Below are positions 1,098-24,100 of a stretch of 64,000 nt of DNA, one piece after another (positions within the stretch are counted from its first letter, which is position 1; each line of letters starts with the position of its first letter). The position numbers and the translations under genes were made by a program. The stretch is from positions 2,728,001 through 2,792,000 of the forward strand of contig OZ017747.1 in NCBI GenBank assembly GCA_963969365.1, written 5' to 3'. The DNA comes from Asterochloris sp. CNOR1. Taxonomy: Eukaryota; Chlorophyta; Trebouxiophyceae; Trebouxiales; Trebouxiaceae. The notes below the pieces were generated by a model that had not been told where the DNA came from, did no database searches, and worked only from the letters and a program-made list of their open reading frames with translations.

Positions 1098-4000
1098 ATG
1101 CGCGGGGGGCTCAGCAGAGCACACCTGTCAATGCCTGATGCACTACAGAACTTGGTGGCACTGAACTGCACATTCATTTGCCTGACAGAGACCTGGCACG
1201 CCGATGGCGAACACCTGCCTGACATGCAAGGATATGTTTACCATGACCTTGTGCGCCCCAGCCACCTACAAAGTGGCAAGGTACCGCATGGGGGTATTGC
1301 TGTCTACATAAAGCGCGAGTGGGCTGACCGCTGTTCTGTTTGGAAATGTGCTCCAGATGGCACTTACCTGTGGCTGCATGTTCGCCTGGGGGGTGATCAC
1401 CCTCAGCACGTTGCCTTTGCCACATGCTACATGCCCCCAGGCCACAAGCACAAAGATCTGTCCACTTTCAAGGATTTATCTGCAGACATGAGATTACTCT
1501 CTCAAGAGTTGCCCAGAGGTGTTCAGTTCTGGGTGTGTGGGGACACCAATGCCCACACGGGGACCTTGCCAGACCATGTGATGCTGGAGGGCCCTGAAAT
1601 CCCTGATGCTGTACAGGCTCTAGATGAACTGCCAGAGCACGTGCCAGAAAGAAGAAATGAGTGCCCCCATGCAGTAGACAGGAGAGGTCGCCAGCAACTG
1701 CAGTTCTGCAAGGACAATTCCCTGCTCATTCTCAATGGCAGAGTCCATGGCGACCCAACTGGCAGGACCACCTACATGCGCGGCCGCAAGCGTGTGGTGC
1801 GCACCACGCTGGACTACCACATGGCCTCGTCGGCCCTCTACCCCTGGGCAGAGCGGCTTGAAGTCCTGCAGAAAGTAAGCACACCATACATGAGCTGCTC
1901 AGACCACCACCCTGTGATGGCACGGTTCAGGCTGCCTGCTGCACAGGAGCCCCCAGCCTACAATGGCCAGGCTGACCAGCCAGCCCACTCAAAGGCAGGG
2001 TGTCTGCAAGTGCCTGCTGTGAAGTTTGAGGCCGAAAGGGAGGAGCAGTACTGGCAGCATTTTCTGTGTGCTGCAGACCAGCAGCAGCTAGATGCGGCCT
2101 GTGCAGACCCAGAGGCTGGGGTCCTGACTATGACACGATGCTTGGCTGACGCTGCTGTGCAGACTTTTGCCCTGAAGAAGGGAAGGGGCCAGAAACCCCG
2201 CCAGTTTCCGGTGTGGTTTGATGCAGAATGCTGGGCCTCATGGCGTGAGTGGAAAGCAGCAGCAAGGGCTCCTGTGCTGACTGCCCACCACGCTGCTGCT
2301 AACAGTTTAAGATGCAGGCACCGGGCTGTCCGACGCCGCAAATATCGACAGTTTCTGACCAACGAGATGCGCCGCATGGATCACCTCTCATTGCCGGATC
2401 TTCATCGCATAGCAGGGTGGCGCAGGCGCCCTGGGTGCCCGCTGTCCAGTGCCATCCAGGCTACGCACATGCAGAAGGTGCTGGGCAGCCATCCCGCATC
2501 TGCTGCCGTCCCAAAGCTGCTCCCTGAAGACACCATCACAGGAGTACATATTGGCACAGATGCTTTCCTGAATGCTGACTGCACCATTTCTGATGTGCGG
2601 GCTGGTCTGCGCAAATTGAGTGCTGGCAAAGCAGCTGGCATCGATGGCATGAGTGCAGAGCTGCTGAAGCATGGGCCATTCCACATGCAACACTGCCTAG
2701 CCAAGCTGTTCACCAGCATGCTCAAGGGGACCTATCCCACGTCGCTCAGCACTGGCCTAGTCACTGCAGTGTACAAGGGAAAACGGAGGGATCCTCTCAA
2801 CATGAACAGCTACCGGCCAATCACGGTCGTTCCTGTGCTGGCCAAGCTATTTGCCACAGTGATGGAGCAGCGCATGACCCGGTGGGCGGAAGCGCTCAAT
2901 CTCAGAGCACCACCGCAGGCTGGCTTCCGCAGGGGCCACAGCACAGCTGGACAGCTGAGCACACTGAACATTCTGGTAAGAAAATATAGGCGGCACAACA
3001 GCAAGCTTTTCTGCTGCTTTGTTGATTTTGAGAAGGCCTTTGACACAGTGGATCGCGGGGTGCTGTGGGCTGTCCTACAAAACCTGGGGGTGTGTGGACA
3101 CTTCATGAGCTGCCTGCAAAGCATGTACGCCCAAGACTCGGCAGCGGTCAGGGCTGGAGGGGGCATATCTGAGGCATTCAGGTGCCTGCAAGGAGTGCAG
3201 CAAGGCAGCCCCCTCAGCCCACTCCTCTTTGGACTGCTGATCGATGTGCTGGACAAGGTCATGCGCAAAGTTAAAGGAAACCATGCACCCACGCTCATGT
3301 TTCATGATGTGCCGCTGCTGCTCTTCGCAGACGATTTGGTGCTCATGAGCACAAGTGAAGAAGGACTGCAACGATTGCTGAATGCTTTACAGATATTCTG
3401 TGAAAACAGGCGGCTCAGAGTCAATTTGGTCAAGACGGAAGTGGTGGTGTTTGAGACACAGCGCCAAGAATGCAGCATCTTCACATACAGTGGGCACCCC
3501 CTGACGCGCTCGGATTCATTCAAGTACCTGGGCCTGTGGTTTGAAGCCACCAAGGAGGGCTTTGCCAAATCCCTTGGCGAGCACCTGGAAGCTGCGCGTA
3601 AAACCATGAACAACATGCTCAGGCGCTGTGCACAGATCAGTTTGACGTGCCCGCGCCGCATCTGCAAGTTGTTTGATGCCTTGGTGCTGCCCATATTGAG
3701 CTATGGCTGTGAGGTCTGGTTCTGGGACCACAGAGCAGGCACACAAGCCACAGCGCAGCTTGAGTCTCTGCATGCACAATTTTTGCGCAGATTGCTTGGC
3801 ATCCACTGCCACACACACAGTCTGATTGCACTTGCTGAGTTTGGCAGATATCCCCTGGCAGTGCATTGGCAGCGGCAAGTGGACAGGTTCAGACAACGCA
3901 TTTGGGACCTCAAGCCGAAGCTTCAGAAGGAGCCCCTGCTATGGGCTATGTATGACGGCGTCTGCTACCTGCCGCTGTACCGCGACCTCTCCTTGGCCCC

Positions 4001-4505
4001 CTTCTGTGCACTACAGGCACATGGCAGCGCAGAGACAGCCCCTGGCAAGAAACAGCATGAGCAGCGCTTCAGGGACTGCCAGGCCGCCACCGTGGCCACC
4101 TACATGCAGATGCGGGGTCCCAACACGGCCTATGCCATGCAGACATACCTGACCAGGATCAGAGGCTTCAGGCTACGCAGAGCCTATGCCAGCATCAGGT
4201 GCAGCAGCCACCAGCTGCGCGTACAGACTGGGCGATACCTATTGCCCCAGCTCAAGCGAGAGGACCGGACATGCCGAATCTGTGGGTCACCGAATGAGAT
4301 TGAGGATGAAAGCCATATCCTGCTACACTGCCCAGGACTTGCAGACCTCCGGTCTGCTCACAGCCACCTGTTTGCGGAGCAGCAGCAGTCGTTGGCAACG
4401 CTGTTTGAACAACCACCAAGCCGAGTGGCCACATACATCAGGGCAGCACTGCTCCAGCACGCAACTATGCTGGGCATCACTGGGGGCACATCTGGGCCTA
4501 AATGA
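1098..4505 (+). CDS. LINE ORF2: endonuclease and reverse transcriptase
   Basis: From the first ATG the protein is 1135 residues. In order it carries an EEP/APE endonuclease (FICLTETW with the metal-binding Glu, WVCGDTNAH, and SDHHPV at residues about 265-272), a reverse transcriptase (AGIDGMSAELL, FVDFEKAFDTVD, QGVQQGSPLSPLLF, and the catalytic FADD in LLLFADDLVLM), and a C-terminal zinc knuckle of C-x2-C-x10-H-x4-C type. The endonuclease's conserved first-strand Asn (LWNMRGG) is encoded at 1095-1097, upstream of the ATG at 1098. The functional frame therefore probably starts earlier, in the 15 codons between the ORF1 stop and this ATG. No frameshift or internal stop was seen. Expected role: nicking target DNA and copying the element RNA in place. 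Confidence 0.93.
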   Translation: MRGGLSRAHLSMPDALQNLVALNCTFICLTETWHADGEHLPDMQGYVYHDLVRPSHLQSGKVPHGGIAVYIKREWADRCSVWKCAPDGTYLWLHVRLGGDHPQHVAFATCYMPPGHKHKDLSTFKDLSADMRLLSQELPRGVQFWVCGDTNAHTGTLPDHVMLEGPEIPDAVQALDELPEHVPERRNECPHAVDRRGRQQLQFCKDNSLLILNGRVHGDPTGRTTYMRGRKRVVRTTLDYHMASSALYPWAERLEVLQKVSTPYMSCSDHHPVMARFRLPAAQEPPAYNGQADQPAHSKAGCLQVPAVKFEAEREEQYWQHFLCAADQQQLDAACADPEAGVLTMTRCLADAAVQTFALKKGRGQKPRQFPVWFDAECWASWREWKAAARAPVLTAHHAAANSLRCRHRAVRRRKYRQFLTNEMRRMDHLSLPDLHRIAGWRRRPGCPLSSAIQATHMQKVLGSHPASAAVPKLLPEDTITGVHIGTDAFLNADCTISDVRAGLRKLSAGKAAGIDGMSAELLKHGPFHMQHCLAKLFTSMLKGTYPTSLSTGLVTAVYKGKRRDPLNMNSYRPITVVPVLAKLFATVMEQRMTRWAEALNLRAPPQAGFRRGHSTAGQLSTLNILVRKYRRHNSKLFCCFVDFEKAFDTVDRGVLWAVLQNLGVCGHFMSCLQSMYAQDSAAVRAGGGISEAFRCLQGVQQGSPLSPLLFGLLIDVLDKVMRKVKGNHAPTLMFHDVPLLLFADDLVLMSTSEEGLQRLLNALQIFCENRRLRVNLVKTEVVVFETQRQECSIFTYSGHPLTRSDSFKYLGLWFEATKEGFAKSLGEHLEAARKTMNNMLRRCAQISLTCPRRICKLFDALVLPILSYGCEVWFWDHRAGTQATAQLESLHAQFLRRLLGIHCHTHSLIALAEFGRYPLAVHWQRQVDRFRQRIWDLKPKLQKEPLLWAMYDGVCYLPLYRDLSLAPFCALQAHGSAETAPGKKQHEQRFRDCQAATVATYMQMRGPNTAYAMQTYLTRIRGFRLRRAYASIRCSSHQLRVQTGRYLLPQLKREDRTCRICGSPNEIEDESHILLHCPGLADLRSAHSHLFAEQQQSLATLFEQPPSRVATYIRAALLQHATMLGITGGTSGPK

Positions 4506-5301
4506 GGAACAGACACCCTGGGTGACCCCTCTATGTGCCGTGATGTGTCCCCAGCTTACCAGCTGCTGATTAGAGCCCCAATTTCATAGCAATGCGCTAG
4601 ACTCATCACATGATTGTCTTCCCCTAAGGTCCCCATGCTGAGTTGTTGCTTGGGGTGTGCCGCCTTGGAGCCTGGTGCCCTGCGAGGGGAAGACTGCTGG
4701 TCACAGTCATACCCAAGCATAACTCTCTCATGACTGCGAAGTCTACGAGCTGAGAGGGCGTGGCAAGCCAGTCAGGGGGGCTGAGCCCCCCCCTGCGCCA
4801 TACAGGATCCAGGGTGTTTGCATTTCGGGCAGCAACCTCAGCTAGCAGTCCAACGTGGTGATGAAGCCCAGCACAGTGCCAAGGCCTGCTATGAGCGCCG
4901 GCTCCCTCTTTACCAGCCAAGTACAGTGACCTGCTTGATATGCCTGTACTGCTTCTTTTTGTACCCCTACACCTTCAGCAAAGTTCATTGGTAGGATGAA
5001 ATGATCATAGTCCTATGCCCGTGCATTGAGGCTACGGACTTTAAATTTAAATCATCATCATCAACCTTATTAACCGAGTGCGAAGCAGCCATGTCAAACA
5101 GTATTGAATCGAGAGGATCCACTGATCTTGATAGACTCAAAGCTGAGAACTGTACTGAAGCAATGGTGCCTCCTAAAGCTTTGGAAGCGGGACTCTGCCT
5201 CACGGTGCTGAACTGTTGCGGAGCATCTGAGACAAAGTAGCAGGTCATACCTGAAGCAGCTGTCACCATCGGCCTGGAAACAAAATTTGGGCCAAAGCAA
5301 G
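4506..5301 (+). other. LINE 3' UTR and tail, then upstream region of the carrier gene
   Basis: No gene is seen here. The first part (to about 5067) is the 3' untranslated part of the LINE, ending in a short ATC repeat. The remaining 230 or so bases lead up to the carrier start codon at 5302 and must hold its promoter and 5' leader, unless these lie inside the LINE. No clear TATA box was identified. Confidence 0.6.
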
Positions 5302-8300
5302 ATGTCTCAGGACGGCAGGCACAGCCCTGGATTGGTGCGGAGCCTGATCAACAGCAGCGCCGCAGCAGCAATTGCAGAGACAGCCACACTACCTTTTGAT
5401 ACAGCCAAGGTGTGTCCATGGCTTTCACATTTTGCAGGCTCTACATGCTTGGGATGGCTGCCAGGGTACAACCTTAGCAAGGCTGCGCCGCTGTGCTATT
5501 GGCCAGGCAGCACGCCCCACATTGGAGAACAAGTGTCGCCTTGCAACCTCTGATGGTTGGGAGAGGGCACGAATGCAGGCTGTGTGCAGGCCAGCAGCCT
5601 GTCTCCATGGTGTGCAGGTCCGACTGCAGCTCCAGAATGTGTCACGTGGCGGGGAGCGGCGGTACAAGGGGCCAGTGCAGACCATTGGGCGCATTGCCAG
5701 CGAGGAGGGCATCATGGCACCCTTCAAGGCAAGCACTGCAGCAGCCAATGGCACACCCCACAGTCAGCTTTCAAGCTCTGAACAAATGATGCATTGGTGC
5801 CATGCACCCAGTGCTGAGGTGTCAATAGCGCAAGGCTCTGGCACCCTGCAGGCAAGCTTATTCAGCAGCTGCACGCACAGCACATTGTGAGCATCCAAGG
5901 ACCCGTAGCAAGAAGCAACACTAGCAACAAGTTGCTGGGGCATGAGATGTGGCATCTTGGTGTCATGTCTCCAGCGCGTTGAGGCGTGATGGACAAAGCC
6001 ACGGAGGTCACAGATGCTGCCTTTGAGGCAAGCGCTGCAGCGTCTTCATGCTAGGCACAGCTTATGGCAAACAGCCTGCTGCACGGCTCTGCAGGCCAGG
6101 CATTCAGCCGTGCAGGCAGGCCACACAGCGCTGGACTTCTCAGCAAAAGTGGCCCCATGTGGGCATTCCATAGGGATGCCGATGCAGGGCACTTGCCTGT
6201 GCAGGCTGGACACCACCCTCCCAGAACAGGAACAGTACACTGCCACCATATTCCTCATGGCTGACCCTGATCTTATGCGCTGCCTGCTGTGGGCCCACAG
6301 CATACTGCTTGGCTGCTGCCCGAGAGCAGCAAACAGGCATGAACAACACCCCATCCTGCAGACAGGCACGCCTGAGTGATCTACAGCACCGTGGTGCTGT
6401 GGACCGTCACCAAGGGCAGCCAGACATGTCACCAACTGTTGCAGTCAGGGTATGCATGTCCGGCACCAGGCTCTGTACTCATGACAGACATGAGTCAGGA
6501 GAGGCATGAGGTATGGCTTTTACCTCTCATTGCATGGTTTGGTGGTTGCGGTTTTCACCTTGAAGGGCGCCACAATTCCCTTCGTGGCTTTGTGCTTGCC
6601 ATGCCTCAACGGCGCTGGATGCAAAGCAGCAAAGCTTCAGCTTGCAAGTCCTGGCAGCGCTCAGCAGGCGGCCTGCCGTCAAGAGGCAGCCTGCAAGTGG
6701 CCGCTGCAGTGCTTTGCAAGGCGCCGTGACGCCCTCCATGGCTCTATGCTGGTCACACCTCAGTAAGCTGTATGCACAGCACAGAAACACCAGTTCAAGC
6801 TCTGGCAGCAAGATGTGGGCTCACAGACGCGCTGTAATACCAAGCCCAGGGTTCCCCTGCCTGCCTGCAGGGCTGGGTGCCTGGGCTTCAGCGGCAGGTA
6901 CTCTTCACCGGCATTCGACTGGGCCTGTATGAGCGGGTGAAGGACGTGATGGGCGGGGGCGCCAGCGAGACGCCGCTGTACGCCAAAGTGGCGGCCGCGC
7001 TGTGCACGTCCGCTGTGGGCATCACCGTGGCCAACCCGGCGGACCTGGTCAAAGTCCGCCTGCAGGTGGGGCTGGCACGAGCAGTGGGCTGCACATGTTT
7101 GTGTCAATGCCTCAGGGCTGTACCAGGTCTTTGCCTCCAGGTGAGGGCTGGCATCAGCAATGAGCTTCGTGTGGTTGGACAGGTGCATGGTGGCTGCTGG
7201 AGGTGTGGTGCCCTTTGAGCAACTTTTACAAGCGGTGAGCATCGCTTACTGAGCTTGGAGCACATCTTGCATGAGCACATGCCTTGGCTGCTCATCAGTC
7301 TCGACACCTTCAGGTGGGCGTGCATTGGCATCGCCGGCGGTTGGCTTAGGTATCTGGCGCTGCAGGGGGACGCAAGGAGCTTGCATCACAATGGCCAGTC
7401 CCCCTGATTCCGCCCAAAGGGCTGGTGACAGCGGTGTGGCTGGGAGGAAAGCGGTGCAGCGCCTGTTGAGGGAGATGCGATGACAATGCAGTCTGGGCTT
7501 AGGCTTCCAATGACTGCACCATGAAGCCTAAGCACTGAGCCTCAACCTGCAAATGCTAGCGTAAGGCTGCTGATTGTGCAGCTCACTTGGCCTGCATGGC
7601 TGGAGTTGTCACCGTCTCCAGCCATGGAGGAGGAATGCATGTGCCTGGTGGCTGCGAGCAGCATGAACGTGCATGCAGGCCACATGCTACTGGCCTGAAG
7701 CTGCACCTGGCCACCAACACATTGCCAGGGTGCGCTGGCCAGCTGCTCCGCTTTGCTCAGGGTGCCCCCTGTGGGGCCATCAGCTCCTACCAGCACATAG
7801 TTCCGTCCTGCCATGCCTGGCTGCTCAGCAGCTCTGCATGTCAGCCAACTACAGTGCAGCCCTTTGTGAGCCCTGCACCTCTCCGTGCAGGCGTGCGAAC
7901 ACCCGACAAGTCTCATCTTCACACGGCGACAAGGCAGTGCCTTGGCAGTGGATGTTGGGAGCCCAACATACAAGAATGCGCGGGAAGCCTATTCCCGAAT
8001 CGTGAAAGAGGAGGGGCTTGGGGTGAGCTCCACGAGGCCACGAATTGGTTGGGACAGCTGGGTTGAACGCTTGCAGAGCCCAGGGGCAGCTTGGGTGCAT
8101 GATGGCAGCCCACAAGGCAGCAAGGGATGACTGGGATTCATCATTGCAGAGCCTAAGGCAGCAAGGGATGAGTGGGGTTCATCACGGCAGAGCCTAAGGG
8201 CAGCAGGGAACGATTGGAGGTATAGCATGGCAGAGCCTGAGCGGCAGCTCGGATTGATGCAAAGGTGGGGGCTGCACAGCGTTCATATAGAGCCCGCACA

Positions 8301-9607
8301 CGCATCTCGGTGTTTGGGCAGGCTAGTGGGGGGAGCAGCTGTGCCGCAGGCAAGCCTGAGGGGACAGACCTGTGGTGCTCAGCCGTTGCACCTGAAGAGC
8401 GCAGCCAGAAGGGGAGCTCGGATGTGCTTCTGGGACGCGCGAGGGGAGATCTGCAGCCTCCATGAGCTGGCAGGGGAGACCTGCTTGTTGCTTGGGAATG
8501 GGGTGTGTGCTCACCTGCAAAAGTGCGCATCCCTGCTGGCCTACGGCAGCCCATGGCCTACAATGACTTCATGCATGGCACCAGGGAGGAAGCAGTGGCA
8601 CCACCGATGAGCAGGACTGTAACAGCAACAGTCCATCTTGCTGTCTGCAGGGCCTGTACAAGGGCTATCTGGCAAACCTGGTCAGAAACAGCATCATTAG
8701 CGCAACAGAGCTTGTCAGCTATGATCAGGCCAAGCAAACGCTGCTTGAACACGGGTGAGCGGTGATATGGCGTGCTGCAATGCATGTGTTGCTTCAGGAC
8801 CTCCAGATGCTGTGTTGAGCTGGTGCTACATGGGAAGATCATGAGGCGGCATGCATCCCTTCCGCTGTCTGCTGTAGACCCCTACAAAGATGTGCTTAGT
8901 GGCACGCACTGGTTGCTGTGCTTGCCTGCAGCTTTCAGGATGGCATTGGAGTGCACCTGCTGTGCGGGCTCACAGCAGGGCTGGCTGCCACAACCTTGGG
9001 GTCACCCTGGGATGTGATTGGCACCAGGCAAGGCTGCCCCTGTCTGAAATCAGCTGGTACTGCCAACGACCAGTGGTCTGGTGCTTCGATGAGAGCTGAA
9101 CGGGCCTCCCATGAGCTGGGCCGGCCATCATGTTCCGGAGCAATGGCATGTACATGAGGCAGACACTCTGAAGCAGATCTGTGATGCGCAGGCTCATGGC
9201 AGTGGCAAACTCCAAGGCACCTGCATCTGGCAAGCCAGCCCCGCCAAAGCAGCTACTACCCTTCATTGCTCATATGGCAAAGACAGAAGGTCTGGGCGCT
9301 TTCTACCAGGTATGTCTTCTGCCTTGTCAGACAGGCCTGCGTCCTTGGCAGCAGGTTGATTGTGTGCGACCCCTTGGTGTGACAACTGAGTGCATCAGCT
9401 TGGTCAGGCTTGCGACAGTTGAACCCGCTCAGAGCTCACCATAGGGCCTTGCAGGGGTGATGTGGCATGACAATGCATGAGCTGGCTCAGTCTGACTATT
9501 GCCTGACCAAGCTCCCTTTGTTGCAGGGCTTCATTCCCAACTTTGCGCGCATTGGCTCCTTCAACATTGTGCTCTGGCTGTCTTACGAGCAAATCAAGAA
9601 GCTGTAG
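5302..9607 (+). CDS. Mitochondrial carrier, uncoupling-protein (UCP) type
   Basis: Eight exons join in phase to 319 residues: 5302-5409, 5618-5728, 6871-7065, 7891-8022, 8651-8754, 8932-9027, 9177-9309, 9527-9607. This is the usual carrier length (about 300). The three-fold repeat shows LPFDTAKVRLQ, NPADLVKVRLQ and SPWDVIGTR as carrier signatures. The C-terminus GFIPNFARIGSFN resembles plant UCPs (GFIPNFGRLGSWN), and EGLGGLYKGY and ELVSYDQAKQ also fit. UCPs sit in the inner mitochondrial membrane and exchange metabolites or leak protons. In the third signature the usual Lys/Arg is Gly (PWDVIG). Introns 2 and 6 begin with GC (donors at 5729 and 9028). Exon 4 is the least certain, since its first 20 residues do not align well. 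A dicarboxylate carrier is the main alternative. Confidence 0.87.
8114..8236. repeat. 41-bp tandem repeat in a carrier intron
   Basis: About three copies of a 41-base unit start at 8114, 8155 and 8196, each beginning aagg(g)cagcaaggga and ending gcagagcct. The third copy is diverged. They lie in the intron between carrier exons 4 and 5. No coding role is apparent. Confidence 0.7.
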
Positions 9608-10033
9608 CTGTAGTATTGCCACTCCCGCACGGCCGCATTTGAACCGATAGAACCTGTTGCTGACGTCAGCTAGGCTGAGCAGGCCCATATTTTAGTGTGA
9701 GCTGTCTGTATGATGGCAGTTCAACCTTTGGCATTTGCCTTTAGCATTGTGTACGCCCCTTGACTTGTCAGACTTTATGAAATGCAGGTGATCTGTAAGC
9801 TGCTCTCAATGCCACAAAACGCTGCAGGTGGTGTCACTGCACACTGTCAGGCTACATAGTGCCACTCAGGAGATCGCTGTTGATAAGGTTGGCATCACAT
9901 AGCAGAAGCAGTCGTGGTTCCAAAACTTGTTGAACTTGTGTGGTCAATGCCTGGTGCATTCCCTGCTTGGATTCAGGTCGTTGCCATTGGGGTCAGCGGC
10001 GTATTTCAGCCGCGCCAACTCTGTGTCAGGAAC
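9608..10033. other. Convergent intergenic region (carrier / pfkB)
   Basis: This is the 3' flanking region of two convergent genes, with no conserved reading frame. A TGTAA motif (9794-9798), the green-algal polyadenylation signal type, lies about 190 bases after the carrier stop and may end that transcript. Confidence 0.45.
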
Positions 10034-14772: not shown

Positions 14773-17700
14773 TCAGTCCCCACCAAGCTCAGAGAGCTTG
14801 CCAATGCACAGGTCCAGCTTGGTCCAGGGGGTGCCAGTGACCAGGTTGCGGAGCAGCAGCACTGGCGCTTGAAGGTGGTGCAGGGCCAGAAAAGGCAGGG
14901 GGTCCATGGAGTCATACACAGCATCCACTCCTCCAGTGATGTTGCTGAAGAACGCTTTCAGTTCCCATGTTCTTGAGAGCGAGTAAACCTCGTTCCAGAA
15001 CCAGTAAAGAGGAGGGCTGTCTGACCGCGGCTTCACAGCGCTGCTAATGGCTGAGGGCTCTGTGAAGGCCAGACCCAGCTGGCTGCTGTCATGGTATGCA
15101 CACAGGACAGTGCTACACCGCGGATTGCACTCGATACTGTAGAGATGCCCATCTTTTGAGTCTTCCATGAAGTCAACACACACCTGCACCAGAATTTAGC
15201 TTGGCTTGCCTGTCTCGCAGTCACTGCGCCTGAGCAGCATCTCGCTAATGCACTGATGCAAGAGGTGGCACATGAGCTTGCGTTGCAAGCCTCAGCAGCA
15301 TGCCCGCAATCAGCAGCAAGCTGCACCAAGGCCACCAATTCAATAAATCACATTAGCCACAGGCAGCCCAGGAACTGTGCTTCATGCCGATTGCAATAAA
15401 GCTGTCCAGAGTGCAGCAGCGTGCCAAAAGCAAAGCTCAGCGACTACAATGAGGCAGTAGAACAGCCTGTGTACGGAGACATATGCTGCCTATCCAGCTG
15501 CCCACCTGGCCAGTGAGCTTGAGCTTGCCGCAGAAGGTCTCCATCCACTCGGCAATCTCCCTGCTGTCGACGTGTCCAAAGTTGAGGCAGCTCAAGCTGG
15601 CAATGTTGTCAGAATGGGCCACAATGCGGCCCTCATCTGCCACAGTGTAGCACGAGTACTCACGGCCAGTCAGGTACTGCTGGAGGATCCAGGGGCAGTT
15701 CAGGCTGATGTCCACGCTCTGCAGGCAATCACACAGGGAAGACTCGAGCAGCACAGGAACGCACCTGCTGCAGTATGCAGGGGCAATCATGATAAAGATC
15801 TGACTCCAAAAACAAGTGAAGGGGGCATTGTCTAGAGGAAGGCCTCCTTCCAGGTAGTGCTGGCGAGCGCAGTGCATTGGCATCTTGCAGGACGCAGGGC
15901 TGATGCTTCAGCCATTCAGGCGGGCTCAGAGATGAAGCAAGCCTTTAGCAGGCTCAAACACGCTACACCTGCTGCGCCATGAAGTTGAGGCGGCTGTGGT
16001 CTGCCTTGCTGACGTGCCCGTCTGAGGAGTAACTTCTGAGCTACACAGTGTGTGCTCTGCATGACGTCTGCAGTGATGGCCTTGGGTCCAAGGTGCCCCA
16101 AAAAGCACCTTGCTGCTGGATGAATGGCGCACCTTGAGGTATGCCTCCAGCGCAGCCGCAGTTGCAGGCAGGGTGAAGAGGTCGGTTCGGTGCTTGGGGT
16201 CATAGGACACACACTTGAGTAAGAAGCGGGCGCCGTTCGTGACATCACTGCTGACGTTTAGCTTCCGCAGTTCGTCATGGGTGGTGATGCTCCACATCTT
16301 GGGCACGCGCACACCTATCTTATTGCAGACCTCAGAGAACTTGATCTGCACCAGACGGCACAGATTGTGTGAGGGTGCAAGGCGCCACAGGAACTCAGGC
16401 CTTGACATGAGTGGCGGCTGCAGGGGGTTTGCAAGGGACATTGCTGACAGCAGCTGCGAACGACAGTCCTGTAAAATTGAGGCTGCAGAGGCCAGTGCTG
16501 ATCAGGACTGCAATCATTGGCAACAACAACGTCAAGCCCTGCTCCAAGAACATGAATACAGCATTCACCTTGTCGTCCAGCACAGCAGTAAGGTCTGCGC
16601 TCAGAGAGAGGCTGCGACACCCACTGGGCAGCAAGTCGATGAGGATTGCATCATAGATGCTGTGGTTGGGAGGTGCCGATGGGATCAGCAGGGAGGCACC
16701 TTCTTGGCGGCAAACCTCTGCCACAGCCTGCATGTACCCTGCAAGGGAGAGAGGAAGTCAGCCATTCAAAGGCAGAACAGCAGGCATGGTGTGGGCGATG
16801 CAGGCCTTCCTGCAGTCTGCCTGAGCATGTGTAAAGCTGTGCAATGCCCACAAGCTCCTCCACAGCCTAATAGCAGGCACCCACTGTCGTGCTGGCCCAG
16901 CCAGGACAGCAGCACCTGTTCAGCAATGCTGAAACAGCCTACCAAGCAGTGCCCAAGCAGGTCAGGCTCAGCCATTGAAGTGTCCTGAGTTCCCTGACAG
17001 TGTGGCAAAGCATCCCTTGTGCATCTCACCCTCCAGAAACAGCATGGGGTGCAGTGCACTGCTAAATGTGCATCAGGGCATGCACGCTCAGTCAGCCCAG
17101 CAGAGCAGTGCCTGCCTAGTGAGTTGCGCCCTGGGTCCGGCACTGTGTGGAAGGCAGCCACGCTGGTGGAGAAACGGGACATGCCCATCCACCACTTGTC
17201 ATAGTCCACCGCCACCACGCGCCAGCCAGCCCTGCGCAGCTGCCGGCACACATGCAGCCCCTTGGTCATGTGGGCGCCTGCAGGCGGCACGATAACAGCT
17301 CTTACAACTCAAAAAGCAGCACCACTTTGCCAGTCCCTCTGCACAGACGCACAGGCAGAACAGGGCAGCGGCTGAACTCACAGGCGGCAAGGCCTTGGGC
17401 AAGGCCAGTGACACTTGATGGCTTGCTGCTCATGAGCAGCACATGCCAGGGGCATCACCTGTCACGACTGCAGTGCGGCTGTTCCTGGTGTTCTGCGGTT
17501 GGGACTCTTGCAGCCAGCGGGTGCCAACCTCCCGTGCAGCAGCCAGGACCATAGAGAAGCATCGGAGCGGGCCGAGCAGTATAATGCCGCCGAGGGAGAA
17601 GGGCACTGTGATCAGCAGCAGAGACAGGAGCAGCACGCTCCTGATGCGGGCCCGCATCTGCTCAGCAAAACTGATGGAGGCCAACTGCACTTTGACAGCC

Positions 17701-18041
17701 TGCTGCACATGGCTGTTGCGCTCAAGAGCCTGAGCCACAGCCTGCAGCGCGGTCAGGCTCTTGTGAGCTGTGTGCTGCCCCACTGCCATCTTGGGCACAA
17801 GGACATGCTTGAGAGCTGGAATGGCTGGTGTCTGCAGGCGTAGGCAGGCAGCGGAGAACAGCATACTCACCACGCTTCTTGCTGAAGGGGCCAGGTCCAG
17901 CACACGTCGCACAGCTGCATTCTCCATCCTGCTGATCTCATCTGCCTCCAGACACTCAGATGCAGCAATGCCATTGACATCACCATTGGCATGATCATTT
18001 GTGTGGGGCTGCTGGGGGCCCTGCAAATGCAGTGCATGCAT
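14773..18041 (-). CDS. mysC: ATP-grasp ligase, MysC homologue (mycosporine-glycine synthase)
   Basis: Six exons on the minus strand: 18041-17459, 17277-17116, 16738-16569, 16345-16133, 15718-15506, 15183-14773. They join to 583 residues. The order matches cyanobacterial MysC throughout: a membrane segment (SVLLLSLLLITVPFSLGGII), the start of the catalytic part AVVTGGAHMTKGLHV, DYDKWWMGMSRFSTSV, ADLTAVLDDK, ILQQYLTGREYSCYTV, KLKLTGQ, the metal-binding IECNPR, and a diagnostic tail PLPFLALHHLQAPVLLL then IGKLSELGGD. MysC joins glycine to 4-deoxygadusol with ATP to give mycosporine-glycine, the core of MAA sunscreens. The intron after 17116 has a GC donor; the join gives VPDPGRNSLGYMQAV, the same spacing as in MysC. 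The N-terminal 120 residues before the membrane segment are extra, and the start codon is uncertain. The neighbouring divergent O-methyltransferase supports the pathway call. Assignment rests on recalled family sequence, not a search. Confidence 0.87.
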
Positions 18042-18367
18042 GTCATCTGCCCCTGGAATCGTTCTGGAGGTATCTGAAGGACTGCACAAACCTTTTTGGC
18101 CATTGTGCAAGAGGCTCAGGCCTTGAAAAGTTAGATCTGGCGACTGCAGGGCTGGTCAACAGTCGACTTGAATGGTGCCCATGCGCAGCGCAGATGGTCT
18201 GATGCGGTGCAGTCGCTTGAGAAGCAGCACAATTTTGGGTGTTGAATTCAACTGCCACCCGGCGCCAGGTACTTAATATGCCACGACAGTGATATAGGAG
18301 CCTGTTGAACATTACCTGCTACACCCTCCCTGCAGCAGAGCCAGACGAGGTCTTGAGCCCCTGTGCA
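18042..18367. promoter_or_regulatory. Shared divergent promoter of the mysC-like and O-methyltransferase genes
   Basis: These 326 bases separate the two start codons, which are read in opposite directions, so both 5' leaders and promoters must lie here or overlap into the genes. No unambiguous TATA box or known light-response element could be named. The mysC start could also lie further upstream in an extra exon, since its frame stays open to 18110. Confidence 0.55.
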
Positions 18368-20825
18368 ATGGCACCTAGCGCTGAGTCTGCCAATGGCAGC
18401 ATGGATGCCAGCCACACCAGGGCCATAGGTGATTCCCCATAGTTGCCTGATGGACCTGTTGTGCGCTCAGCCTGATGATCCACTTGAAATGCCTTGTCAT
18501 GCAGCCAAAGTGTTTGAGGCCATGCAAGGACAGTGGCTCAGCAGCTGTCTGGGCGTCCTGCTGGATCTCCATATCCCTGAGATCCTGTCATCTGCTCCCA
18601 AGCCATTGGACATCGAGGAGGTCAGTGCATGGTTGCGCCTCTGACATGGCACGGCGACTGCCAGACATTGCATGGACGCATTTCAGAGTCAACAGCCGTA
18701 ATGATGTGGCCCAATGACCTGCCATCTCTATATGTAGCACCACCGTGATGAGGTGTCTGACGGCTGGCACAGTGCTGTGGCCGCATGCAGTGCATCAAGC
18801 AAACACGGTCTGTGGTCAGAAGCCCTCCTGCATCATGCTGCAGGTGGCAAAGAAGGCAGATGCCAGCCCCCAGGGCACAGACCACCTTTACAAGGTGCTG
18901 CGCACATGTGCTCAGTGGGAGTTGTTGGTCGAGCTGCCAGGCAAGAAGTTTGCCGCCAATGCAGCCACTAGCGCGCTGGTCCGGGATGGCCCCCCCTCTC
19001 TGGGCCACCTGGCTGCCCATCAGATCAACAAGCCCAAACAGCAGGCCTGGCAGGTGATTTCTGGCAGCTGTCACTGCTTTGCACCTCACGCCAACTGTTT
19101 CCGCGCTTCTCCTGGTAAAGGGGGGGCACATTGACATGCCCTCTTCCTGCAGATGCTCCCTGAGGCTGTCAAGGCAGGACAGACTGCCTTCATGATGGCT
19201 CACAACGGCGAGAACATGTACCAGGTAGGCCTCTGCATGCATGGAACTACTGCAAATTCTGTGCTGCGAGTTAGGTGCTGCTGAGCAGGCTGGCTCTCCC
19301 CCATAGCTTCAGCACTGTAGAAGCTCCAATACCTCTTGCAGTCCGGACCTGTATTCAGGCTGTGTCAGACCGGGCCTGCTGCCTGCAGTACTGCCTGCAC
19401 GCTCTATAGTCACAGTACAGCTTCACCAAGACCTGCGCCAGCTCAGCAGGTCTTGCAGTCCACCCCTTCTGTCTGCGCCTGCCCTTCTGACCCGCGGCTG
19501 GTCCTGCTGTCTGCAGTACTGTGAGCACAAGGCCAATGCAAACTTTGCCCTGGAATTCAACAAGTCTATGACTTACTTCACACAGCACAGCTTGGAGGGT
19601 GGTCAGTACACCCTGCGCAGCGCTTTTGACTGGAGCCGCACACGGGTGGTCATGGATGTCGGCGGGGGTCAGGGCGAGCTCCTTTCACGGGCCATGCTGT
19701 ATGCCGGCAACCAGTGCAAAGGCGTCCTGCTGGACAGGCCCCACGTGCTGGACAGGCAAGTTTTCCGCACCACACTGAAGAGCTTCACTGCTGTCCTTCC
19801 GGCTCTTTCACGCACACGCATGCCAAAGGCAGTGAGCAGGCTGCTTCTGGCTTCAGCCTGCCCAGCATGTTGGAAGTGCCATCTGAGCAGCACTGCCAGG
19901 CTCCCTTTTGCCCTGCCCTTGCCTGGCTGGGTGCCCGTGCGTCTCAAACCTTCCTGTTTTGCCCATGCAGCGTGGATGTGCAGGGTACGTTTGAGGCCAA
20001 GGGAGTGACCAGCGCAGCCCAACGGCTGCAGCGTATCCCCGCAGATGTGATGCAGCCCTTCCCCCAGGCCATTCAGGAGGCTGGTGTGGACACCTTGCTC
20101 ATGAAACACTTTCTGAGCGCTTTCAGCGACAGCCAGGCTGACACCATCTTGAAGCACTGCGCTCAGGCGCTGTCCATGCATGGCAAGCTGCTGCTGATGC
20201 AGGTCAGTTGGGGTTGACTCTGTGGGCAGGTCGGTGCCAAGGTCTCCCCCCCCCCAGCTGTTGACAAAGTCATTCAGTGACCTGCAATTTCTGAGCATGG
20301 GTGCTGGACATCTGCAACCGTGGTTGACGATGCTCAGTGTGCTGTGGTTCTCGGCCTTCAAGGTCAATCTGCGGCTGTCCAAATGTTGATAATCCATGCG
20401 CCCTGCTTCGCTGTATTTATGTGAGCTATGGACGTATCAGTCGCCCTCTCATGCGAGCCATCCTTTCAGCCAATGTTCTTGCCCCGCAGACCCTTGTGCC
20501 CAATGCTGGGGACACAGCCAACAATGTCTGCAAAGATGGAGTCATGCCAGGTGTGGTACCACTTGGTGTGCAGGCAAGCAACATTCAAGTGTCGCTTGGT
20601 GCAGCCTCTGCAGAATTGCTTCAGTGGAGCTGGCTGGGTGTGCATGCTCCATCGCCGCCTGCCTTTTGTCCAGGGCTGTTCTCAATTGAGATTCTGGCCA
20701 TGTGCCCTGGCGGCGCATGGCGAACACTCGATGAGTGGAAGGAGCTGTTTGGCAAGCAAGGGTTCAAGCTGGAGGATGTCAAGGAGATTGGAGCCAGCAT
20801 GCACCTCATGGTGTGGGGGAGATGA
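18368..20825 (+). CDS. SAM-dependent O-methyltransferase, candidate MysB of MAA synthesis
   Basis: Eight exons: 18368-18428, 18505-18620, 18844-19053, 19153-19224, 19517-19755, 19971-20202, 20490-20550, 20674-20825. They total 1143 bases, or 380 residues. An N-terminal dimerisation-type helical part (VFEAMQGQWLSSCLGVLLDL, then VAKKADASPQGTDHLYKVLR) precedes a class I fold with SAM motif VVMDVGGGQGELLSRA. A conserved DTLLMKHFLSAFSD and GKLLLMQTLVPNAGD follow. This is the plant and bacterial O-methyltransferase family 2 layout, shared by MysB, which methylates demethyl-4-deoxygadusol. The divergent MysC homologue makes that role likely, but the family is large and sequence alone does not prove it. 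Intron 5 has a GC donor (19756). Intron 1 is short (76 bases); if it is not spliced, translation could instead begin at the in-frame ATG at 18450. Confidence 0.8.
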
Positions 20826-21117: not shown

Positions 21118-24100
21118 TCAGGAGTGGTGGTGCACTGGTATAAGGAAGGGTTGCTTGAACTGGCCAGGCAGAGTAGCATCCCCCTCATCGCCACTGCTGT
21201 CCATGTCGTCTTCGTCTGCATCTTTGTCCAAATCTGTCAACAGGTCCATGGTCTGTGCGGTGGTCAGCTTGGCCACATTCATGCTGAGCATTCTTGTCAA
21301 AACCTGCTTGCTTGCCCGCCCTGCTGCCCCACGCTTTGTTTCCTGTGTCTCCCAATTGAGCGCCTGCTGGGCAGCAGCAGGGTCAAACCCAGTCTTCTGC
21401 CTGAGCAACTGAGGCTTGGACAAGCTCCGCTTCAAAGCAGAGGCTGCATCCGCTGCAGGGCTGCTGGCTGACTGCAAACCTGTCGCCTGCTCAGCCCCAG
21501 TCTCTGCCTGCAGCAGAGTTGCAGCACCCTCTGCAGTTGCTGCTGCTGCAGGGGCTGCCCGGGCCAGAGCGTGGACACGTTCACGGGCAGCCTGTCTGGC
21601 CACAGCGTCGATCTCAGACCCAGGCGTCATGGGCACTGGTGACATGACAGCTGGGTTGAGTGGGCCCGCGCTGGCTGGCACAGCCACAGCTGGCGGCCTG
21701 CATGCCTGGCCTTGGCGGGGAGAATTACCCATAGTGGGGGACCCCAGCGGACTGGGCTCGCCTGCCGCTGCTGACCAGGCCAGGCTGTGAGGGTGCTGCA
21801 CCGGCCGTGCAGGAGTTAAGGGCGGCGACTCTGCACGGCAGCCACTCACAGGCTGTGACGCTCGCCTCCCAGCAGCAAGTCAGGTACTCGGGGCAGACGC
21901 AGACATGATGCATCAAAGCCAAAAGATCGTGCAGCACACCGCTTTCTGCTCTGTTTCACTGCTAACCAAGAGCTCAAGACAGCCCACAGGGTCAGGGCAG
22001 ATCCTGACTGCTGCAGCTCTTTGGCATGTCATAAGGCAGGCCTGACCAGCATTGACCTGCTGCAGGAGCCTTCTTTGGGGCTCTCTCAGGCTCCAGCGGC
22101 ATCTTCCAGTCCCCAGGTTGATCCAGCACCCAGTTGTGGGTGCCAAAGTCGCCAACATGAGTCCCACTGACACTCCACAGAGCCAGGCGGCGGTCAGCAG
22201 CACTGGTCAGCACAAACAGATCAAAGCCATGCTGAGCCCACTGCACACTGCTGATGGCGCCGGGGTGGGCATGCCACACAGTGATGGGCCTCAGCAGCTG
22301 CAGGACACAAACTCACAAAGTTGGCACAGTTGCTGCATCCCCAGCCCATGCCAGGAATGTCAACTATGCTCGGCTGGGTACGCTCTTGCGCTGCACTGCT
22401 GTGCACGCTTATGTGGGCAGCTCACAGCCTTGCCTCATTGCAATGCATGCCCTCACAGGCCCCTCATGAAGCCAGTCGCTCCTGTGCATGTGGGCAACTC
22501 AGTCGTATGCAGGTGTAGTATGGCAAGCCACTGACTGCCATGCATGACCCGGCACAGCAGCTCACCGCTTTGGGCCGCCGGGGGCTGCCACCGCCTGCCA
22601 GGTCCCTGAGCCCAGTGATGTCCCACACCGTCAAGTAGCCAGCTGCATCCCCTGTGGCCAGGCGCATGTGCACAGGGCTGACAGCCACAACCACCACAGC
22701 ATCGCCAGGCCGCCTGCTGGCCTGCACCTGTGCCAGCACCTCCGCTTTTAGGGTGTGCCACACTCGCAGGTGGCCGTCTGCGCCCACTGCTGCCAGCATG
22801 TAGGGCAGGCTGGCGCCCAGAAACACGATCTGCAGGGCAGGACAGGGGGTGGCTGGCAGGCAACCCCTTGGTGAGGCCTGTTGCTGCAGCTGTGGCCTGG
22901 TAAGGTCACTAGCTTAGTGAGCTGAAGGCCCTGGCGTTGAGGTGTGGGCTGGCAGCCACCTCAGAAGCAAGACGAGGGGCACATGCAGATGCTCAGGGAC
23001 CATCTCCTGTGGCTGCGAAATGCACATGGTGGGCATGCATGACCATTCCAGCCACATTGCAGTTGCAGACTACCTCACAGCTCGGCTGGCGGGGGGCTGC
23101 CGGAAGCCTGGCAGTCTGTGTAAGACTGCCGAGCGTTTGAGCGGCACCTCTCCAGGAACGCACTGACCTACCTGCTCCACAGGGCGGTCGCTGAGTGGGG
23201 TGTCCTCGAAGCCCTGGGGCGTCAGCACCTGGCTGATGGCCCCGCTGTCCGTGTTCCACACCACCAGAAGTCCATCTGATCCAGAGGTCACCAGCATCGT
23301 GGTGCCCTGCACAGGGGTGACAGGAATGTTGCAGTGCTGGCCAGCTGTGCAGCAGTCTGTCCTCAGACATTGGGGCCCCACTTCCAGGGCAGCCCCTCAA
23401 TGAGGCCATGTCAGCAGGAGCCGCAGCACCACCAATGCCGCAGCACCAAGCCATGCATGTCAGGCCCCAGTCTCTGGAGCTGGCGCCTCACACACCAGCA
23501 GCTGCTGCTTCTTGCACCCCAGAAGCACCACACTGTCTGGGGCAGCCATTGCACCTGCCAGACAGCTGTGAAGGTGGCTTGTGCCCATGCTCTGGTGCTC
23601 GCACTTCAGCCTGGTGGCGTTGCTGCAGGCTCACCGGCATGAGCGCCATGGACAGGATGTCCCCTTGGTGCCCCCGCTCGCGAAGGCGTGGGGCAGCCAG
23701 TCCCTCCTGGGCGGGGGTGCCCCCCCCCGAGCCCGCCTCCCGCTCGGGCACCACACGCAGCGGCGGGACGGGGCGCTTGTCGCTGCCCAAGTCTTCATGG
23801 AAGGTCACCCTCCGCGACCAGCCTGCTGACAGTATCAGGCGCCGCCTCAGCATGTTCTGCAGGCAGGCAGGTAGGCAGCACTGACGGCAAGGTCCAGCCC
23901 AGCCACGGTGGCCTGCATGGCTGCTCAGCATGATGCAGCCTGCTGGCAGGATCAGAAGCCTCAGCCTGATGCGGCCTGCTGACAGGATCAGGAGCCCCAG
24001 CATGTTCCACAGCAGGAGCAGGCAGCCATGAAGGTGGAAGCCACCTTGCCGGCAGGATCAGGCAGCTGCCTCAGCATGTTCTGCGGCAGCCACCAGTGAC

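Follow-up and report, generated by a model that had tools for sequence, protein, structure and literature searches.

The 64,000-nucleotide stretch of Asterochloris sp. CNOR1 analyzed here (contig OZ017747.1, positions 2,728,001 to 2,792,000; in the following referred to as the window) carries two divergently oriented genes, for a MysC-like ATP-grasp ligase and a MysF-like methyltransferase. Judged from sequence, the pair probably encodes two late steps of the gadusol-type pathway for mycosporine-like amino acids (MAAs) of green algae, with the methyltransferase acting on nitrogen. A neighborhood of four genes with a gadusol core was already published as a hypothesis in 2020 (PMC7826186), with examples from Klebsormidium, Chromochloris and Coccomyxa. 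The statement of the initial annotation of this locus that green-algal MAA genes are poorly known is outdated in this respect. The locus is a new example of this published but untested pathway, which is split in two here, and for which the identity of the second gene is corrected and its function sharpened. The features of the pair are as follows:

14773..18041, minus strand: gene of the MysC-like ATP-grasp ligase, 7 exons, 540 amino acids (spliced model, family tree)
18041-17871, 17741-17459, 17277-17116, 16738-16569, 16345-16133, 15718-15506, 15183-14773, minus strand: ligase exons 1-7
17571..17639, minus strand: N-terminal hydrophobic segment of the ligase, residues ~92-114 of the 540-amino-acid model (hydropathy; counted from the start of exon 2 at 17741)
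18042..18367, no strand: shared divergent 5' region between the start codons, 326 bp, with promoter and both 5' untranslated regions
18368..20825, plus strand: gene of the MysF-like methyltransferase (PF08100 and PF00891), 8 exons, 380 amino acids (Pfam, tree)
18368-18428, 18505-18620, 18844-19053, 19153-19224, 19517-19755, 19971-20202, 20490-20550, 20674-20825, plus strand: methyltransferase exons 1-8

The plus-strand gene had initially been described as an O-methyltransferase of the MysB type. This identity is ruled out: the window methyltransferase matches PF00891 and PF08100, whereas real MysB matches PF01596 (Pfam), and BLASTP against MysB yielded only a match of 23 amino acids (E 0.55). 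In a tree of 32 rows it belongs to a clade on a long stem (support 100/100) that is composed of 12 green-algal, 12 cyanobacterial mys-linked and 1 unlinked methyltransferase rows. Two of the green-algal rows are metagenome proteins, and the label mys-linked is loose for three of the 12 cyanobacterial ones (L122 with a MysD-like gene alone, L120 and L028 with mysC ~6 kb away). The tree kept 17 of the 33 protein-search matches; the 16 left out were fragments, near-copies and some full-length proteins. Regarding a grouping with unrelated methyltransferases, which the initial annotation had considered, the protein stands apart from the PF00891 outgroups of the tree; plant COMT (61 bits) and human ASMT (40 bits) were compared by score alone, outside the tree, and a bacterial enzyme reached 93 bits.

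The clade includes a copy from Nostoc sp. UHCC 0926 to which the window methyltransferase is 35% identical. This copy (L012/L124) is located on plasmid pn1 right after remnants of mysB and mysC and before a frame resembling a nonribosomal peptide synthetase (NRPS). MysF was named in a mysFIE cluster with an upstream pseudo-mysC1 (PMC10510106), and the Nostoc copy is this published MysF, an identification by strain, plasmid and context that was made in the present analysis. By its placement in the tree the predicted window protein therefore belongs with MysF, which in the mys clusters of cyanobacteria is a methyltransferase distinct from MysB. Relatives were present at 6 of 80 cyanobacterial mysC loci, in five of them at most 0.7 kb downstream of mysC. 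At a threshold of E 1e-30 or better, 8 of 386 cyanobacterial genomes had a methyltransferase match, and the stretches fetched around these eight contained mysC or a remnant in five cases, only a MysD-like gene in one and neither in two. That the cyanobacterial relatives of the algal methyltransferase are often found near mys genes has been stated before (PMC7826186). The locus was initially proposed as a likely green-algal MAA locus; this is retained, on account of a ligase on the MysC side and a methyltransferase with often mys-linked relatives, but without the MysB identity.

A separate observation concerns locus L118 (genome G125; 3226-9693), where a methyltransferase of the MysF clade immediately follows an NRPS whose domains are of the condensation, AMP-binding, methyltransferase, carrier and thioesterase types. 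No mys match was found in the 18.5 kb around this copy. Since it adjoins an NRPS without a mys match nearby, the MysF family may also work outside MAAs.

In O-methyltransferases of the PF00891 family a histidine serves as the catalytic base. Serine was found at this position in all 25 members of the algal/MysF clade (Ser282 in the window methyltransferase) and histidine in all seven outgroup rows. The histidine was likewise kept in L123 (G062), one of the eight cyanobacterial matches, which falls outside the MysF clade, and it was present in the five PDB matches listed (four bacterial enzymes and bergaptol O-methyltransferase).

The chemistry described for green algae points in the same direction. 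Klebsormidin B is an N-methylserine derivative with gadusol core (PMC7118736) and algasporine-glycine has been described with an N-methyl group (PMC13312787). Prasiolin is gadusol-glutamate without an extra methyl group (PMC4698291), and the value of 333 calculated for gadusol plus Glu matches it with no further methyl needed. For gadusol plus Gly plus CH2 a value of 276.1078 was calculated, and 276.1075 was observed in Apatococcus ammoniophilus (PMC12325221). For MysF itself, methylation of the amide residue at C3 of the core is a prediction and not a demonstrated activity (PMC10510106). Because of the His-to-Ser change in the clade, and because klebsormidins and algasporine-glycine carry N-methyl groups, we propose N-methylation; these data suggest that the window enzyme is an amine (N-)methyltransferase acting on the ligated amino acid. 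A paper joining MysF with the algal methyltransferase gene was not found among the open PMC papers listed by the literature searches.

The reading of the minus-strand gene as a MysC match was confirmed, with 34.7% identity to MysC of Nostoc HK-01 over 401 amino acids (E 1e-86, BLASTP). This match was initially said to extend along the whole length of the protein; it spans residues 187-583 of our first ligase model (see below), and the N-terminus aligns only loosely. The membrane segment and both motifs reported initially are present, namely a hydrophobic stretch at residues ~92-114, IECNPR and the LHH...GKLSELGGD tail (read straight from the sequence), and a similar N-terminal hydrophobic segment is found in the alignment for Nostoc MysC.

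In a tree of 41 rows, 34 MysC and algal rows part from 7 other ATP-grasps with support 100/99, so that the ligase stays on the MysC side, whereas the initial annotation had allowed for a position outside. The six green-algal ligase rows form one clade (98/87), which is sister to, and not inside, the cyanobacterial and actinobacterial MysC (94/95). P0041 and P0002 are the sister of this green-algal clade and are joined to it at 100/98. The rows included 18 hand-picked ones of the 80 mysC loci, together with L117, L119, L120, L121 and Nostoc HK-01; P0040, one of the six green rows, is a metagenome protein that was labelled green by us. On the PRK06849/NF005315 profile the 583-amino-acid model scored 267 bits, below the cut-off of 406, versus 560 for Nostoc MysC. 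Because of this score we regard the predicted protein as MysC-like and do not file it as canonical MysC. A second copy of the ligase family was not found in the genome search. With the full-length ligase as query the protein search gave at least 3 matches, and with residues 187-583 alone at least 10, among 8000 candidates scored; little can be concluded from an alga that is missing here.

Clean spliced frames were obtained for both genes, with ends at exactly 14773 (minus strand) and 20825 (plus strand). Six of the seven methyltransferase introns are GT-AG and one, intron 5 (19756-19970), is GC-AG; the ligase also has one GC-AG intron, after exon 3 (17115-16739). The closest relative of the methyltransferase among 33 matches is model 5597 of Astpho2, which we take to be Asterochloris (97% identity over 95% of the query). 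For the ligase it is, among the matches listed, a Myrmecia protein with 52% identity over 497 amino acids. In view of these close relatives chance is excluded as an explanation of the predicted genes. The start codons are indeed 326 bp apart, as stated initially for a shared promoter, but this stretch also contains both 5' untranslated regions; the shared region may allow co-regulation of the two genes.

A six-exon ligase model of 583 amino acids was rejected, as it had retained a 129-bp in-frame intron (17870-17742) that was removed by comparison with Myrmecia. The family-profile, BLAST, genome-copy, N-terminal alignment, linkage and protein-search results for the ligase were obtained with this first model. 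Its 43 extra residues fall outside the ligase part, and the tree took residues 151-583 only. With respect to the public annotation, Astpho2 model 5597 has eight residues fewer than our methyltransferase model at intron 5. Model 5596 (P0045) joins part of the last ligase exon to a neighboring pfkB gene, and the ligase is therefore likely mis-modelled in Astpho2.

Further genes of the pathway were looked for in the complete genome (56.4 Mb, 21 contigs, with the window at C2:2728001-2792000). Two of them were located on contig C3:

C3:3246576-3250165: gene of an EEVS-type cyclase, 5' end uncertain
C3:3239421-3243987: gene of MT-Ox (PF01596 and short-chain dehydrogenase, SDR), 543 amino acids, on the same strand as the EEVS gene and ~2.6 kb away from it

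At least two loci of the DHQ-synthase family were among the best candidates scored, one of which looks by eye like a plain DHQ synthase. The C3 cyclase scored 340 bits with ValA versus 229 bits with the Anabaena DDGS. It was placed outside the DDGS clade (99/100) in a tree that does not unite the EEVS rows in a single clade. This tree contained Nostoc mysA, the Anabaena DDGS and 11 loci of cyanobacteria assigned to DDGS by their scores, with L130 left out; a partial DHQ synthase, with half of the columns filled and a very long branch, served as outgroup. The 543-amino-acid protein is taken for MT-Ox, based on the published description of methyltransferase and oxidase domains (PMC7826186). Over 264 amino acids its methyltransferase half shares 40% identity with Nostoc MysB. 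The initial annotation had seen MysB and MysC, adjacent in cyanobacterial clusters, as two pathway steps side by side in the window; a MysB-like domain is found on C3 instead, within MT-Ox and beside the EEVS-type cyclase. A search for MysD in the genome gave nothing, with no positive control run. Between the two C3 genes (~3244534-3244917, minus strand) there is a frame that resembles, by eye, tubulin-folding cofactor A.

In total, all four families (EEVS, MT-Ox, ATP-grasp and methyltransferase) are present in this genome, as a C2 pair and a C3 pair and not as one cluster. Because the MysB-like domain is part of an MT-Ox with two functions, next to the EEVS-type cyclase, a gadusol core is predicted and not 4-deoxygadusol. 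The four-gene form occurs in a streptophyte, a chlorophycean and a trebouxiophyte, and the 2+2 split would therefore most simply be derived from it.

In the proposed pathway, whose substrates and order of steps we infer, sedoheptulose 7-phosphate would be cyclised by the C3 EEVS, and the C3 MT-Ox would then oxidise and O-methylate the product to give gadusol. The window ligase, presumably membrane-anchored by its N-terminal segment, would use ATP to attach an amino acid, most likely Gly or Ser, to the ring of gadusol. Subsequently the window methyltransferase would methylate the nitrogen of the ligated amino acid with S-adenosylmethionine. The expected product is an N-methyl gadusol-amino acid of the algasporine-glycine or klebsormidin type with an absorption near 324 nm. 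The vague MysB/MysC pair is thereby replaced by a complete, testable proposal of four enzymes behind the sunscreens with which terrestrial green algae absorb at 324 nm. This proposal assigns the N-methyl group of these compounds to a gene.

Several points weigh against this proposal. The histidine may be dispensable in some O-methyltransferases of the PF00891 family, and the low profile score of the ligase and the uncertain start of the C3 EEVS gene model have to be kept in mind. The function of MysF is itself a prediction in print (PMC10510106). The ion at 276.1075 is isobaric with mycosporine-serine and gadusol-alanine and was first read as mycosporine-serine by its finders (PMC12325221), and the value printed for klebsormidin B (306.1160) is 2.3 mDa apart from the calculated 306.1183. 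The same gadusol-type pathway could also contain a true O-methyltransferase, which would cap a hydroxyl of the ring or side chain after ligation. In the PDB, most of the PF00891 matches with a name are O-methyltransferases, and PMC7826186 names the gene 'o-methyltransferase' with a role in 'subsequent methylation'. However, the exchange of the catalytic histidine in 25 of 25 clade members, the position of the extra methyl group on nitrogen in klebsormidin B and algasporine-glycine, and the fact that prasiolin needs no such group make this version rather unlikely.

N-methylation in a gadusol-type pathway is also to be held against the known distribution of MAAs. In a survey, MAAs were detected only within the Prasiola clade, and none turned up in Myrmecia bisecta SAG 2043 or Trebouxia arboricola (PMC5947255), despite the presence of both genes in Myrmecia bisecta and of the methyltransferase in Trebouxia spp.; UV induction was shown there only for three other strains. 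An Apatococcus methyltransferase was absent among the 33 protein-search matches, and the Apatococcus ligase match (P0038) comes from another species, A. fuscideae. The N-methyl compound has been reported from A. ammoniophilus (PMC12325221). Extracts of Klebsormidium subtile were also annotated with deoxygadusol-type MAAs (PMC13312787), and the gadusol core is therefore not the sole possibility in green algae. The missing MAAs in related Trebouxia and Myrmecia strains would suit a decaying pathway with intact frames, disused after the cluster was split, in lichen algae that perhaps rely on fungal screens. We consider this very unlikely, given that in both pairs the frames are open and the splice sites usable, and that the Astpho2 methyltransferase is 97% identical. 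Equally improbable is a chance neighborhood, in which ligase and methyltransferase serve different pathways and merely share a 5' region. The location of the other two pathway genes elsewhere would fit, as would Elliptochloris, whose two best matches are on contigs of different length, so that the pair is non-adjacent or not assembled together. Against this, both families are linked in cyanobacteria and in the published algal neighborhoods (PMC7826186), and the two best matches of Klebsormidium come from a contig of the same length, 137,572 bases. The least credible version, with hardly any weight left, is the original one, in which MysB and MysC form a mini-cluster for mycosporine-glycine with a core of 4-deoxygadusol. 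It agrees with the MysC-like ligase, but family membership already contradicts it for the methyltransferase, and no DDGS was found among the best-scored genome candidates (a plain DHQ synthase by eye and the EEVS-type cyclase).

A combination of these genes was also found in cyanobacteria. The algal EEVS had matches at E 1e-60 or better in 26 of 386 cyanobacterial genomes, one with 370 bits and the rest with 211-237 bits. Among 388 genomes of the order to which the 370-bit hit belongs, six had a cyclase 96-100% identical to it, and the next best match reached 259 bits. All six showed the same gene order in syntenic surroundings:

L117 5536-10117, also L169-L173: operon of EEVS, PF01596-type methyltransferase, mysC and mysF-like gene (Pfam assignment made on L117 only)

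Owing to the syntenic surroundings and the nearly identical cyclases, the six genomes are one lineage and count as one case. An upstream gene of the xylose-isomerase-like TIM-barrel type and two genes named beta-glucosidase and GH65 by reading were conserved neighbors in all six. An SDR match was not found beside the operon in the fetched stretches of 14-19 kb. In the 41-row tree, algal MysC and the MysC of the operon lineage do not group together. A description of the operon was not found among the open PMC papers listed by the literature searches, a scope that does not include figure 6B of PMC7826186 on cyanobacterial neighborhoods. We give about even chances to the wider view that the algal gene and cyanobacterial MysF are one family of His-less PF00891 N-methyltransferases of MAAs, which would explain the N-methyl group of the klebsormidins and algasporine-glycine. 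According to this view the trio of EEVS, MysC and MysF is no algal invention. N-methylated MAAs with a gadusol core are then to be expected in cyanobacteria, and an operon of this kind may be the ancestor of the algal pathway. The operon points to cyanobacteria with a matching gene set in one unit, which could be expressed as such.

Directly downstream of the ligase in the window lies a carbohydrate kinase gene of the pfkB type (PF00294; 13465-14007, minus strand), with more pieces recognized by eye to ~12054. On the right-hand side, a frame at 21118-21879 had no Pfam match and one at 22464-22913 (minus strand) had weak beta-propeller matches below the cut-off; neither has an evident link to the pathway.

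Among the related systems known, the green-algal neighborhood of Foflonker and Blaby-Haas 2020 (PMC7826186) comprises the same four families, EEVS, MT-Ox, a MysC-related ATP-grasp and a methyltransferase. The latter was allied there to a clade of uncharacterised proteins from cyanobacteria, whose genes frequently lie close to MysA/B/C and NRPS genes. The genes are clustered in Klebsormidium nitens, Chromochloris zofingiensis and Coccomyxa subellipsoidea, whereas two pairs on two contigs were found here. The name MysF, the His-to-Ser change and N-methylation do not appear in the available portion of that account. With MysF of the mysFIE cluster (PMC10510106) the window methyltransferase has the 100/100 clade and the serine in common; MysF differs in belonging to a 4-deoxygadusol pathway with the NRPS MysE and the dioxygenase MysI. 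The ligase resembles MysC of the Balskus and Walsh type in family, ECNPR motif, N-terminal hydrophobic segment and GKL.E..GD tail, but it is a member of the green-algal sister clade and its predicted acceptor is gadusol, not 4-deoxygadusol. The vertebrate gadusol pathway consists of EEVS and MT-Ox (PMC4426668), to which the EEVS-type cyclase and the two-domain methyltransferase and SDR protein on C3 correspond, a likeness at the level of published descriptions. Ligase and methyltransferase are the additions of the alga, and the adjacent position of EEVS and MT-Ox in Coccomyxa subellipsoidea was already noted in the same article. Finally, the cyanobacterial operon likewise unites ligase, methyltransferase and EEVS-type cyclase, but its PF01596 methyltransferase is a separate gene without SDR.

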